A stretch of 64,000 bases of DNA from Actinomadura sp. DC4. Its GTDB lineage: Bacteria > Actinomycetota > Actinomycetes > Streptosporangiales > Streptosporangiaceae. Both the position numbers and the translations under genes were made by a program. The notes beneath the pieces are model-generated. The model did not search any database. It was not told the DNA's origin and worked only from the letters and a program-made list of their open reading frames with translations. The stretch covers positions 1 through 64,000 of the forward strand of contig NZ_JAUEQY010000046.1 of NCBI RefSeq assembly GCF_030406325.1, in the 5' to 3' direction. Of the stretch, positions 8,920 to 20,853 are shown piece by piece; the first letter of the stretch is position 1, and the number at the start of each line of letters is the position of its first letter.

Positions 8920-9543
8920 TCAGTAGGTGCACCCCGGCGGGTCGGCCGGGGGCGAGACCTCACCGGAGGGGATCGGCAGCGGGGCGTCCCTCACCGTGTA
9001 GCCCTTCAGGAAACGCCCAGAAGGGCCGGCGCTCGCCGGGCTGAACGGCGCGGGCCCCGTGCCCATCTGCTGGCAGCGCGCGTCGACCACACCCCACGAG
9101 AAGCCCATCCGGTCGAAGCGGTGGCCCTGCGGGGACATGTAGAAGGTCAGCGTCGCCCGCCGCTGGTTGGCGGGTACGTCGTCCGAGCGGACCCCGGACA
9201 CCACCGCGATCGGCCCGCCGGTCATCAGATAGTCGACCGTGATGGTGCCCCAGTGATCCACCGAAGGCCCGCCGGGCGTGTCCGGGGCGTAGTGATCGAA
9301 CCGTACGGTCCCGTGCGCGTCGCCCATTACGAACCGGTTGTCGACGATCTTCCACGGGCCGCCGTGGGCGTCCACGACGAAGCGCCGGTACGGGTACTCC
9401 GGGTCGCCCGGATAACGCACCCACGCGTCCCCGGTGACAGAAGCAGCGGCCTCCGCATGTCGGGCGACGGCCTCCGCCGGCGGAACACCCATCGACGCCA
9501 CCAACACGGACCCGAACGCCACGGTACGGACCAAGTTCAACAC
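8920..9543 (-). CDS. Secreted hypothetical protein
   Basis: The 207-residue product starts at GTG 9543, with GGAGG seven bases upstream. Its signal peptide is VLNLVRTVAFGSVLVASMG followed by a likely AEA cleavage site. The mature part is beta-rich (WVRYPGDPEYPYRRFVVDAHG, TVRFDHYAPDTPGG, ATLTFYMSPQGHRFDRMGFSWG) and ends in PPGCTY. Two cysteines (DARC, PGC) may form a disulfide in the exported protein. No catalytic motif is recognisable. It is probably the first gene of a two-gene unit with the protein at 8435-8875. Confidence 0.6.
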   Translation of the reverse strand: MLNLVRTVAFGSVLVASMGVPPAEAVARHAEAAASVTGDAWVRYPGDPEYPYRRFVVDAHGGPWKIVDNRFVMGDAHGTVRFDHYAPDTPGGPSVDHWGTITVDYLMTGGPIAVVSGVRSDDVPANQRRATLTFYMSPQGHRFDRMGFSWGVVDARCQQMGTGPAPFSPASAGPSGRFLKGYTVRDAPLPIPSGEVSPPADPPGCTY

Positions 9544-9748
9544 GGGCGAACCTCCGATAAGACCCTGCGCGGGCGGTGTTGCCCGCCTGCACAAGCACAC
9601 CGGGCGCAGAGGCGGCACGCCTCCCTCGCGAGGGCCGGATGCCTCCCCCGGGGAGGTGAGGGCGCACGGACGGTCACCCAGGGGTGTACGGAGAAGTGTC
9701 ATCCGGAGGCGGACGTCAGGTTTCCAGGGCCGCACGTAGCGTGTTCCT

Positions 9749-9957
9749 ACAACCTAAGACCACCAAGGAGGCTCGGCGCATCGTCCTGAATTCGGGGGGA
9801 TTCATGGGGGAGGCGATGCGAGGGCCGGTTTCCCGGGCCCTTGGATCTGTACCCGTCCAAGCCCAGGAAGGCGAGTGTTCGCGGGTGGGTTTCCTTTGGG
9901 GGAAGGAGCCCACCCGCGAACGTCGTAACAGGCGTCACCGCAGGGTGGCGCCTTTTT
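9749..9957 (+). ncRNA. Candidate structured non-coding RNA
   Basis: About 200 bases without a credible reading frame fold into five consecutive hairpins. Hairpin 1 is 9777-9820 (CGCATCG/CGATGCG plus inner TGAAT/ATTCA, loop with six G). Hairpin 2 is 9821-9841 (AGGGCC/GGCCCT). Hairpin 3 is 9841-9860 (TTGGA/TCCAA). Hairpin 4 is 9877-9921 (13-bp stem GTTCGCGGGTGGG, loop containing five G). Hairpin 5 is a T-tailed terminator at 9931-9957. A weak promoter, GTCAGG at 9715 and TAGCGT at 9737 with a 16-bp spacer, would start the RNA near 9749. The nearest plus-strand gene is 965 bp downstream, so it is not an mRNA leader. I do not recognise it as tmRNA, RNase P RNA or SRP RNA. The strand is set by the T-run. 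No family is assigned. Confidence 0.55.
9931..9957 (+). terminator. Intrinsic terminator
   Basis: A 9-bp stem (GGCGTCACC pairing with GGTGGCGCC, one G-T pair) is followed directly by five T. The T-run touches the stop codon of the convergent amidohydrolase gene. Since no plus-strand protein gene lies upstream, it terminates a non-coding transcript. Confidence 0.8.
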
Positions 9958-10853
9958 CACGTCACCCCGAAAAGCCGCGCCGCGTTGTCATGGCACACCC
10001 CGCGTAGCCACGCGTCCCCCAGCTCCAGCCGCGCCAGCGCCTCCAGCTGGGAGGCGTACGGGTACGGGATGTTCGGAAAGTCCGTCCCCAGCAACACCCG
10101 GTCGCCCAAGTCGGCCAGCCGAGGCGTCAGCGACGCGGGCCACGGACGAAGCTTCTCGGTGAACGACGTGAACGCCATCGTCGTGTCCAGCCGCACCGAA
10201 GGGTGACGCTCGGCGAGGGCGAGGAACTCCTCGTACTCCGGCATCCCCATGTGCGCGATGATCGCGACCAGCCGCGGATGCCGCGCGAGCACCTCGGCGA
10301 ACGCCCCCGGCCCGGTGAAGGACCCCGCCTCCGGTCCGGACCCGCAGTGCACGACGACCGGCGTACCCGACTCCGCCAGCAGTCCCCACACCGGCGAGAG
10401 CAGCGGATCGCGCGGGTCATAGCCCCCCACCTGCACGTGCGCCTTGAACACCCGGGCCCCGCCGGCGATCGCCTCGGCCGCATAGCGCGGAGCCGACGGC
10501 TCGGGAAAGAACGTCGCCGTACGGAGACAGTCCGGCGTACGGGCGGCGAAGGAGGCGCCCCAGTCGTTCAGCCACGACGCCATGTCCGGCCGGTGCGGAT
10601 AGAGGAGCGCGGTGAACCGCCGTACGCCGAACTCCCGCAACAGCTCCAGCCGCTCCGGCTCGTCCTGCTGGTAGTGCGCCGACCACGAGAGCCCCGCCTC
10701 GGTGAAGTGGTCGAAATACGCCCGCACCTTGCGAAGGACGTTGTCCGGCATGAAGTGCGTATGGACGTCGATCAGGCCGGGCAGCCCGAGGGCCTGCCAG
10801 AAGCCTGGAATGTCCAGGTCGTCCTGAAGGAGAGAGGGGGACATCTCCCGCAT
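9957..10853 (-). CDS. Amidohydrolase family protein
   Basis: This 298-residue metal-dependent hydrolase belongs to the amidohydrolase_2 group (ACMSD-like TIM barrel). Likely metal ligands are H31 and H33 (DVHTHF), H169 (VVVHCGSG), H201 (IIAHMG) and D258 (GTDFPN). K137 (VFKAHV) lies where a bridging lysine can occur. Family members are hydrolases or non-oxidative decarboxylases of carboxylic acids; the substrate here cannot be read. M1 at 10853 has no good ribosome site and M4 (10844) is an alternative start. It is convergent with the candidate ncRNA and divergent from the HTH/Clp-N gene. Confidence 0.8.
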   Translation of the reverse strand: MREMSPSLLQDDLDIPGFWQALGLPGLIDVHTHFMPDNVLRKVRAYFDHFTEAGLSWSAHYQQDEPERLELLREFGVRRFTALLYPHRPDMASWLNDWGASFAARTPDCLRTATFFPEPSAPRYAAEAIAGGARVFKAHVQVGGYDPRDPLLSPVWGLLAESGTPVVVHCGSGPEAGSFTGPGAFAEVLARHPRLVAIIAHMGMPEYEEFLALAERHPSVRLDTTMAFTSFTEKLRPWPASLTPRLADLGDRVLLGTDFPNIPYPYASQLEALARLELGDAWLRGVCHDNAARLFGVT

Positions 10854-20000: not shown

Positions 20001-20729
20001 ATGGATCTGGAGAATGAGCTGCGGCAGGCCATGGCGGAGCATGTCACGGAGGTGTCGGCCCCGAGGTCGCTGGCCTCGGACGCCAAGCGCCGTCATCACC
20101 GTACGGTCCGGCGCCGGACGGCGCTGGCCGTCGGTGTGGCCGGTGTGGCGGTGGGAGTCGCGATGGTCCCGGCCTATCAGTCCTTTCGCCCGCAGACCGT
20201 CGGTGCGGACGGTCAGGGCGGGGGAAAGCACGGCGGAGGCGTGACCGGCTCGCTGCCGGCGACGCCGGCGCCGTCCGTGACTCCACGCTCGGGCTCGCCC
20301 AAGGCCGGATCGAATGGCGCACACCCCCCGGCGAAGCCGAGACACTCCCCGAGCCCGCGTGGTTCCGGCCTCGCGATGGCCGAGCGACTGCTCGGCTACC
20401 TTCCCCAGGGCCTCACCGCGAAGCCCTGCGAGACGGACCACGTCGGCTCGAAGGAGACCACGGTCTGCCGCTGGACGGGTTCCGGCGGCTGGATCGAGGT
20501 ACGCCTCGTACGCGGCGGAGGGCTCACGGCTCCGACTGATCTCGGGTTGACCCCGCCGATGGCGAAGCAGTCCACCGTGCACGACCATCCCGCGCTGCGC
20601 AGCGCCGGGCCGCCCATTCCGAGTCAGGTCATGTGGATCGAACGCCACGGTCTCGGAGTCTGGGTGAGCGTCAGCCCTTCACTGGGTGACCGGCTTCTGC
20701 GCGTCGCGGACGGTGTGAACGTCTCCTGA
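20001..20729 (+). CDS. Single-pass membrane protein, putative anti-sigma partner
   Basis: The 242-residue protein has a short cytoplasmic N-terminus (MDLENELRQAMAEHVTEVS, basic KRRHHRTVRRR), one transmembrane segment (ALAVGVAGVAVGVAMVPAY, about residues 41-59), a Gly/Pro/Ser-rich linker and an extracellular domain with two cysteines (KPCETD, TVCRW). It begins 3 bp after the sigma gene. Position and topology are those of an anti-sigma factor, but no zinc-type ZAS motif (HxxxCxxC) is present. Partnership is therefore inferred from context only. Confidence 0.65.
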   Translation: MDLENELRQAMAEHVTEVSAPRSLASDAKRRHHRTVRRRTALAVGVAGVAVGVAMVPAYQSFRPQTVGADGQGGGKHGGGVTGSLPATPAPSVTPRSGSPKAGSNGAHPPAKPRHSPSPRGSGLAMAERLLGYLPQGLTAKPCETDHVGSKETTVCRWTGSGGWIEVRLVRGGGLTAPTDLGLTPPMAKQSTVHDHPALRSAGPPIPSQVMWIERHGLGVWVSVSPSLGDRLLRVADGVNVS

Positions 20730-20730
20730 G

Positions 20731-20772
20731 GGGTGCCGGGACGCATCCGCCTCCCAAGGCGTCCCGGCACCC
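20731..20772 (+). terminator. Terminator of sigma operon
   Basis: A perfect 13-bp stem (GGGTGCCGGGACG and complement at 20760-20772) begins right after the stop codon of the membrane protein gene. Confidence 0.8.
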
Positions 20773-20792
20773 GCCCCTCAGGCCCTCGGACA

Positions 20793-20833
20793 CGACACGG
20801 GCCGTTCCGTCATCGACGGGGCGGCCCGTGTCG
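20793..20833 (-). terminator. Terminator of aminotransferase gene
   Basis: A perfect 12-bp stem (CGACACGGGCCG with CGGCCCGTGTCG at 20822-20833) lies 20 bp beyond the stop of the minus-strand aminotransferase gene. Confidence 0.75.
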
Positions 20834-20853
20834 TTGGTCTGGCAGTGGATCGT

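Follow-up and report, generated by a model that had tools for sequence, protein, structure and literature searches.

Gene context and fold of the RNA at the window locus

Analysis of the window, the whole 64,000-nucleotide stretch of DNA studied here, was directed at a plus-strand segment which a first-pass annotation, made from the letters alone, had proposed to be a novel structured non-coding RNA ending in a terminator. The window comes from a 10.67 Mb genome of the genus Actinoallomurus, and named Actinoallomurus records carry the same copies of the RNA described below. As listed in Table 1, an operator-like site and a possible -10 element precede a proposed small RNA, whose terminator-like hairpin abuts the stop codon of a convergent amidohydrolase gene.

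Table 1. Features of the RNA locus, numbered as in the window.
Feature	Position	Strand	Remark
Operator-like site, GTCACCC..GGGTGTAC..TGTCATC	9673..9703	+	Exact pattern shared upstream of copies
Operator palindrome, CACCCAGGGGTG	9675-9686	+	Degenerate second palindrome at about 9700-9711
TAGCGT, possible -10 element (TAnnnT)	9737..9742	+	By eye
Proposed sRNA transcript, about 209 nt	9749..9957	+	Conserved core matches model R1; both ends inferred
Helix P1	9770..9826 (9770-9774/9822-9826 and 9777-9785/9812-9820)	+	Encloses hairpin A; covariation
Hairpin A, loop in G run, GGGGGG at 9794-9799	9787..9804	+	Stem covaries
Third G run, 3' single strand inside P1	9806..9810	+	0.50-0.65 unpaired in window copy
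Hairpin P2, loop CUGUACCC	9832..9867	+	Covariation
Tall hairpin P3, tip CTTTGGGGGAAG (9894-9905), GGGGG at 9898-9902	9875..9923	+	Arms, covariation
Terminator-like hairpin, 9-bp stem, 4-nt loop, TTTTT	9931..9957	+	Sequence and MFE fold
Convergent amidohydrolase gene (Amidohydro_2)	9957..10853	-	Synteny marker of type B copies

The segment 9715-9965 is predicted to fold at -125 kcal/mol, more stably than any of 200 dinucleotide shuffles (z -4.5). The hairpins noted earlier at 9777-9820 and 9877-9921 are borne out, with arms at 9777-9783/9814-9820 and perfect 13-bp arms at 9877-9889/9909-9921, and so are the runs of six and five G in two of the loops; the third G run had been missed. The consensus fold consists of P1, which encloses hairpin A, then P2, then P3 with the hairpin tip B, and in the type B copies (the window's type, see below) a separate terminator-like hairpin follows P3. 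Two of the hairpins drawn in the first-pass annotation had to be redrawn accordingly: the one at 9821-9841 lies outside the consensus, in which 9822-9826 pairs with 9770-9774 and extends P1, while the pairing at 9841-9860 is real but is only the tip of the longer helix P2. In the predicted fold of the window copy, 9794-9797 of the first G run are unpaired and 9798-9799 are paired, and 2 of the 12 consensus pairs of P2 fail to form. We also observed that GGCC-type blocks of P1 and P2 (9770-9774, 9822-9827, 9835-9841 and 9860-9864) are complementary to each other, so that the RNA could switch between two pairings; such re-pairing (e.g., the hairpin 9821-9841) is not favoured by the consensus.

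The fold was then compared among relatives. In an alignment of 24 copies, which was fitted to the covariance model R1 and leans towards that model, two-sided change occurred at 38 of the 55 pairs and in 150 cells, compared with a mean of 41.3 cells (sd 6.9) in shuffled alignments, none of which reached 150 in 500 trials, and with at most 50 in slid controls. The 15-copy alignment, made by MAFFT and the one from which the structure was drawn, had 18 of 55 pairs changing on both sides and 90.7% of cells pairing. As judged from these aligned sequences, the fold is supported by covariation.

The terminator proposed at 9931-9957 forms in the MFE fold, with a stem at 9931-9939/9944-9952 followed by TTTTT at 9953-9957, but a simple terminator scanner returned 0 sites; inspection by eye of the three other type B copies showed a hairpin at the terminator position with a weaker or absent T tail. 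The statement that the segment encodes no plausible protein holds in so far as a comparison of the plus strand showed no reading frame present in every copy (ORFs up to 76 aa), although ORFs do occur on both strands (e.g., 9684-10007 on the plus strand, 107 aa). A coding frame beginning MNWGIQRG was considered and rejected: it occurs in five of the eight type A copies, as 28-60 aa or within a longer ORF, and is absent from the other three and from type B. An intramolecular G-quadruplex was set aside by reasoning, since the G runs are far apart. An Rfam scan of the whole window at gathering thresholds gave three tRNAs elsewhere and no family at the RNA locus; when 9500-10100 was scanned with the limit relaxed to E 10, two sub-threshold rows appeared, one for a trypanosome snoRNA (E 0.3) and one for ctRNA_pGA1 (E 9.1), and both were taken as chance matches.

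A multi-copy family in Actinoallomurus and its shared upstream site

Relatives were found by blastn in 8/8 Actinoallomurus genomes, and none in the other 192 sampled genomes of the family (four candidates scored per genome). Model R1 was built from 15 copies, the window copy among them, these being 15 of the 16 blastn loci in alignment A3; the remaining locus (L016) was omitted as marginal and later entered alignment A5 as L095. Among 341 family genomes, R1 matched in the same eight only (eight candidates scored per genome). Since only four (blastn) or eight (R1) candidates were scored per genome, these searches may have passed over diverged relatives in other genera. R1 gave 28 rows, of which three were antisense readings of counted copies and one was a 52-nt P3 fragment; the 24 used correspond to 2-4 copies per genome (3, 3, 4, 3, 2, 3, 4 and 2 in G000-G007). 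The core of the window copy, 9757-9927, scored 163.5 bits against R1, the copy itself being in the model. The window holds this one full copy, and the three further R1 rows there are the antisense P3 arm of this same copy, 20729-20840 and a 37-nt fragment. The second of these, a weak match, was rejected as two ordinary hairpins after an ORF, presumably one resembling an aminotransferase.

An exact-pattern scan of named species genomes returned 43 stretches, 11 of them from Actinoallomurus. R1 gave six rows on the other 32, two full-length and four fragments with a best E of 0.015, and these were not retained. R1 was also run beside rlpA relatives from outside Actinoallomurus, at 14 loci in 13 genomes, and found nothing better than E 0.06; a crude scan placed G4-run hairpins beside 5 of the 14 loci (L172, L176, L179, L180 and L181), three each at L172 and L180, none of which match R1.

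Together, these comparisons make it nearly certain that 9757-9927 of the plus strand belongs to an undescribed family of functional structured RNA, specific to Actinoallomurus and multi-copy, and they support the earlier proposal of a novel structured non-coding RNA with a terminator at its end. Relatives retain the G runs and the hairpins, whose stems change in a compensatory manner; the separate terminator is less widely kept. This pattern is the reverse of the terminator-only conservation against which that proposal had been set. Each member would measure about 170-210 nt, and we infer that the copies are transcribed.

The G runs at the two hairpin tips are conserved. At tip A the run reaches at least four G in 24/24 copies and at least five in 20/24, and the same counts were obtained at tip B (only the tip run being counted at each). 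The base after the run is A in 20/24 copies at tip A and in all 24 at tip B, and the tip loops are alike, most often UGGGGG. Columns 43-46 and 189-191 of alignment A5 are invariant, the mean entropy being 0.85 bits over 170 columns. In type D the run is G4 at tip A in 4/4 copies and at tip B in 3/4. The third run is five G long in 12/24 copies (types A and B minus one B copy, plus one other), and the sequence of the P2 loop is conserved across types A and B (12 copies) and has drifted in the others.

Nineteen of the 24 copies fall into four locus types, A-D, which keep their own loci across species while the paralogs have diverged widely; the five untyped copies are on G002 C14, G003 C52, G005 C333 and C95, and G006 C352. 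Every genome (8/8) has a type A copy, 15-55 nt away from where the match to an rlpA-like gene (DPBB_1) ends. Type B, to which the window copy belongs, occurs in four genomes and faces the amidohydrolase gene, identified by Pfam at the window copy and by gene calls and alignment at the others. Type C (three genomes) has an LPMO_10-like gene nearby, and two of its copies face a protein kinase gene (Pfam on that of G004). All four type D copies (four genomes) have a LysR-like gene upstream, and for three of them there is an M1 peptidase gene 11-23 bp downstream (Pfam on that of G000). Of the 19 copy regions examined, 14 have as their nearest downstream gene a convergent one whose end lies within 60 bp; neighbours were called with a crude GC3 script that missed rlpA in one region, where it was supplied separately (13 + 1 regions). 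Exceptions with a same-strand downstream gene include type D of G001, type C of G003 and the untyped G003 copy.

Upstream of the copies stand two CACCC-GGGTG-like palindromes about 25 bp apart, followed by a TAnnnT site. The exact operator pattern occurs at 18 sites in the eight Actinoallomurus genomes and at 0 in the other 330 of the 338 family genomes searched; the reversed-pattern control gave 0. Sixteen of the 18 sites stand 46-60 bp upstream of RNA copies, accounting for type A in 8/8, type B in 3/4, type C in 2/3, type D in 0/4 and the untyped copies in 3/5, and near matches were seen by eye at the operator-less B and C copies. By eye, TAnnnT is at the -10 position in 16/16 copies with the exact operator, and it reads TA[AG]CGT in 12 of them; a sigma-70 scan of the window locus found nothing.

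In the type D copies (L093, L094, L095 and L097) the fold persists and the G runs are shorter; the operator is missing and the upstream sequence is a different one, so they are probably regulated differently. The other two operator sites precede genes for a small secreted Trp/Asp/Gly-rich peptide in two genomes (G000:C67:16822-16852, L075 and L163; G001:C1:3251198-3251228, L154); judging from their upstream regions, these genes are the only apparent non-RNA members found of the operator regulon. In 6/6 type A regions examined, the copy has a histidine kinase gene running divergently from it (Pfam on one; L104, 3070-4874), with a response regulator gene behind the kinase in 4/6, and by its position this pair is a possible candidate for the operator regulator.

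Possible titration of 6C RNA by the G runs and competing explanations

Among actinomycetes 6C RNA is widespread, and in mycobacteria it represses genes by means of its C-loops. For M. abscessus B11 (6C), mutation and compensation established that repression of a target through the six-G tract of the eccB4 leader can be brought about by either C-loop (PMC10470900). We tentatively favour, at somewhat below an even chance, a model in which the RNA is a stand-alone sponge that titrates 6C through pairing of G runs with C-loops. A putative regulator would turn on the G-run RNA, its exposed G runs (GGGGGA) would base-pair with both C-run loops of 6C and withhold it from G-rich ribosome-binding sites, and 6C targets would be relieved.

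6C is found in 30 of 41 actinomycete genomes, including the eight Actinoallomurus ones, each of which has one match above the Rfam gathering score and two loops of 7-9 C. For 24/24 copies, a G run and a C-run loop make up the best predicted contact with the 6C of the same genome, with energies from -7.65 to -10.99 kcal/mol. The earlier suggestion that the G runs could pair with C-rich targets thereby gains a concrete candidate, although the pairing is little better than that of shuffled controls: for the six of the 24 copies that were tested, trials with shuffled sRNAs attained the native energy 12, 46, 32, 29, 24 and 12 times out of 150, and those with shuffled 6C 10, 3, 33, 1, 3 and 19 times out of 150. 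Complementarity in such GC-rich RNA is weak evidence for 6C pairing. The best contact was made by the third G run in 12 copies and by tip A and tip B in 6 each, and the prominence of the third run, which is less conserved and not present in all types, counts against the sponge, as do the G4 tips and the missing operator of the type D copies. Loop 2 of 6C has at least 7 C in 8/8 Actinoallomurus genomes and also in 12/22 relatives without the G-run RNA, so no clear co-change of the two RNAs emerges. Our confidence in the sponge is held at its tentative level by these loop 2 C runs in relatives and by the shuffled controls that reach native energy.

The two RNAs resemble each other in reverse. 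Like 6C/B11 (RF01066), the G-run RNA is an actinomycete RNA with two hairpins bearing homopolymer loops, whose loop sequence it mirrors; unlike 6C, it has G rather than C runs and another fold and length, 6C being a separate gene elsewhere in the genome, and the RF01066 covariance model has no match in the window.

Precedents for such a sponge are found in Firmicutes. As described in PMC8216469, the G-rich regions of B. subtilis RosA sponge the C-rich RoxS and FsrA, and S. aureus RsaI is likened to RosA; in a review, RsaI-RsaG binding is seen as likely sponge activity (PMC9266662). The G-run RNA would resemble RosA (about 225 nt; PMC8216469) in being stand-alone and regulated in its transcription, and the two share a limited taxonomic range and several G-rich regions, which in RosA pair with C-rich sRNAs. 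It differs in that the G runs are mostly at hairpin tips of a covarying fold, in having 2-4 paralogs per genome and in its candidate partner, 6C. Accessible G-rich regions complementary to a resident C-rich sRNA are present, though shuffled controls often do equally well, and the shared operator-like site, the terminator-like hairpin and the lack of a common plus-strand frame would fit a stand-alone non-coding transcript.

Within the portions of open-licence literature searched, no RNA controlling 6C and no 6C sponge was found. G-rich sponge sRNAs are a kind already known; what appears new is this family, together with its covarying fold, paralogs and operator. A little more cautiously than for the sponge itself, we propose that the copies may constitute the first 6C-directed sponge family, made up of co-regulated G-run paralogs invented and multiplied in one genus, with a dedicated regulon that would include the Trp/Asp/Gly-rich peptide, and independent of Firmicutes RosA/RsaI. 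If this is true, the family would make 6C titration directly testable and would show that distant phyla evolved sponge RNAs in parallel. Should the 6C link fail, there is still a new covariation-supported RNA family and an operator absent from the other family genera searched.

The same conservation of the G runs would fit a real sRNA family with partners other than 6C, the G runs pairing with C-rich segments of mRNAs or of another RNA, an explanation that we consider unlikely but still deserving of weight. It draws on the finding that shuffled 6C is sometimes as good a partner as real 6C, and C runs should be common at such a genome composition. If C runs are that common, however, a G run of 5-6 nt alone would select targets poorly, and a matching RNA with two C-run loops is present in 8/8 genomes.

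Less probable again is a protein-binding RNA, its paired G-loops read by a protein in the way that ANTAR proteins bind dual hexaloop RNAs. As in ANTAR-target RNAs, two hairpins offer similar short loops, here most often UGGGGG. The loop consensus and spacing do not agree, however: ANTAR targets have hexaloops with A1 and G4 and a linker of 2-25 nt (PMC8164766), and in our copies A precedes the G run in only 4/24 (tip A) and 3/24 (tip B), with about 100 nt between the tip A and tip B runs of the window copy (9794 and 9898). Nor is the window copy the leader of a nearby downstream gene, the next plus-strand gene being about 965 bp away.

We give only a slight chance to a convergent bidirectional terminator or a small mobile repeat without function in trans. 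The 14 of 19 regions with a closely convergent gene end would suit a terminator, but a terminator requires neither P1, P2, the G runs nor a shared operator. A mobile repeat could explain why several loci have operator and RNA together, as though the pair had been duplicated in one piece; against it stand the low copy number (2-4), the wide divergence of paralogs, the fidelity of types A-D to their own loci and the empty results of blastn against plasmids and phages and of one exact-pattern scan of viral contigs (0 sites).

A 6S/Ms1-type RNA that binds RNA polymerase is very improbable: the G-run RNA is a stand-alone structured actinomycete RNA of a size similar to Ms1, but 6S-type RNA is a rod with one central bubble while the fold here is one of separate hairpins, and no 6S-type Rfam family matched at gathering threshold in the window or at E up to 10 over 9500-10100. 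A table in PMC9130861 reports Ms1 for Actinoallomurus.

Three genomes have 6C on the same contig as the type A copy (G000:C6, G001:C1 and G002:C17), at distances of about 57, 64 and 84 kb, possibly reflecting an old linkage of the two RNAs.
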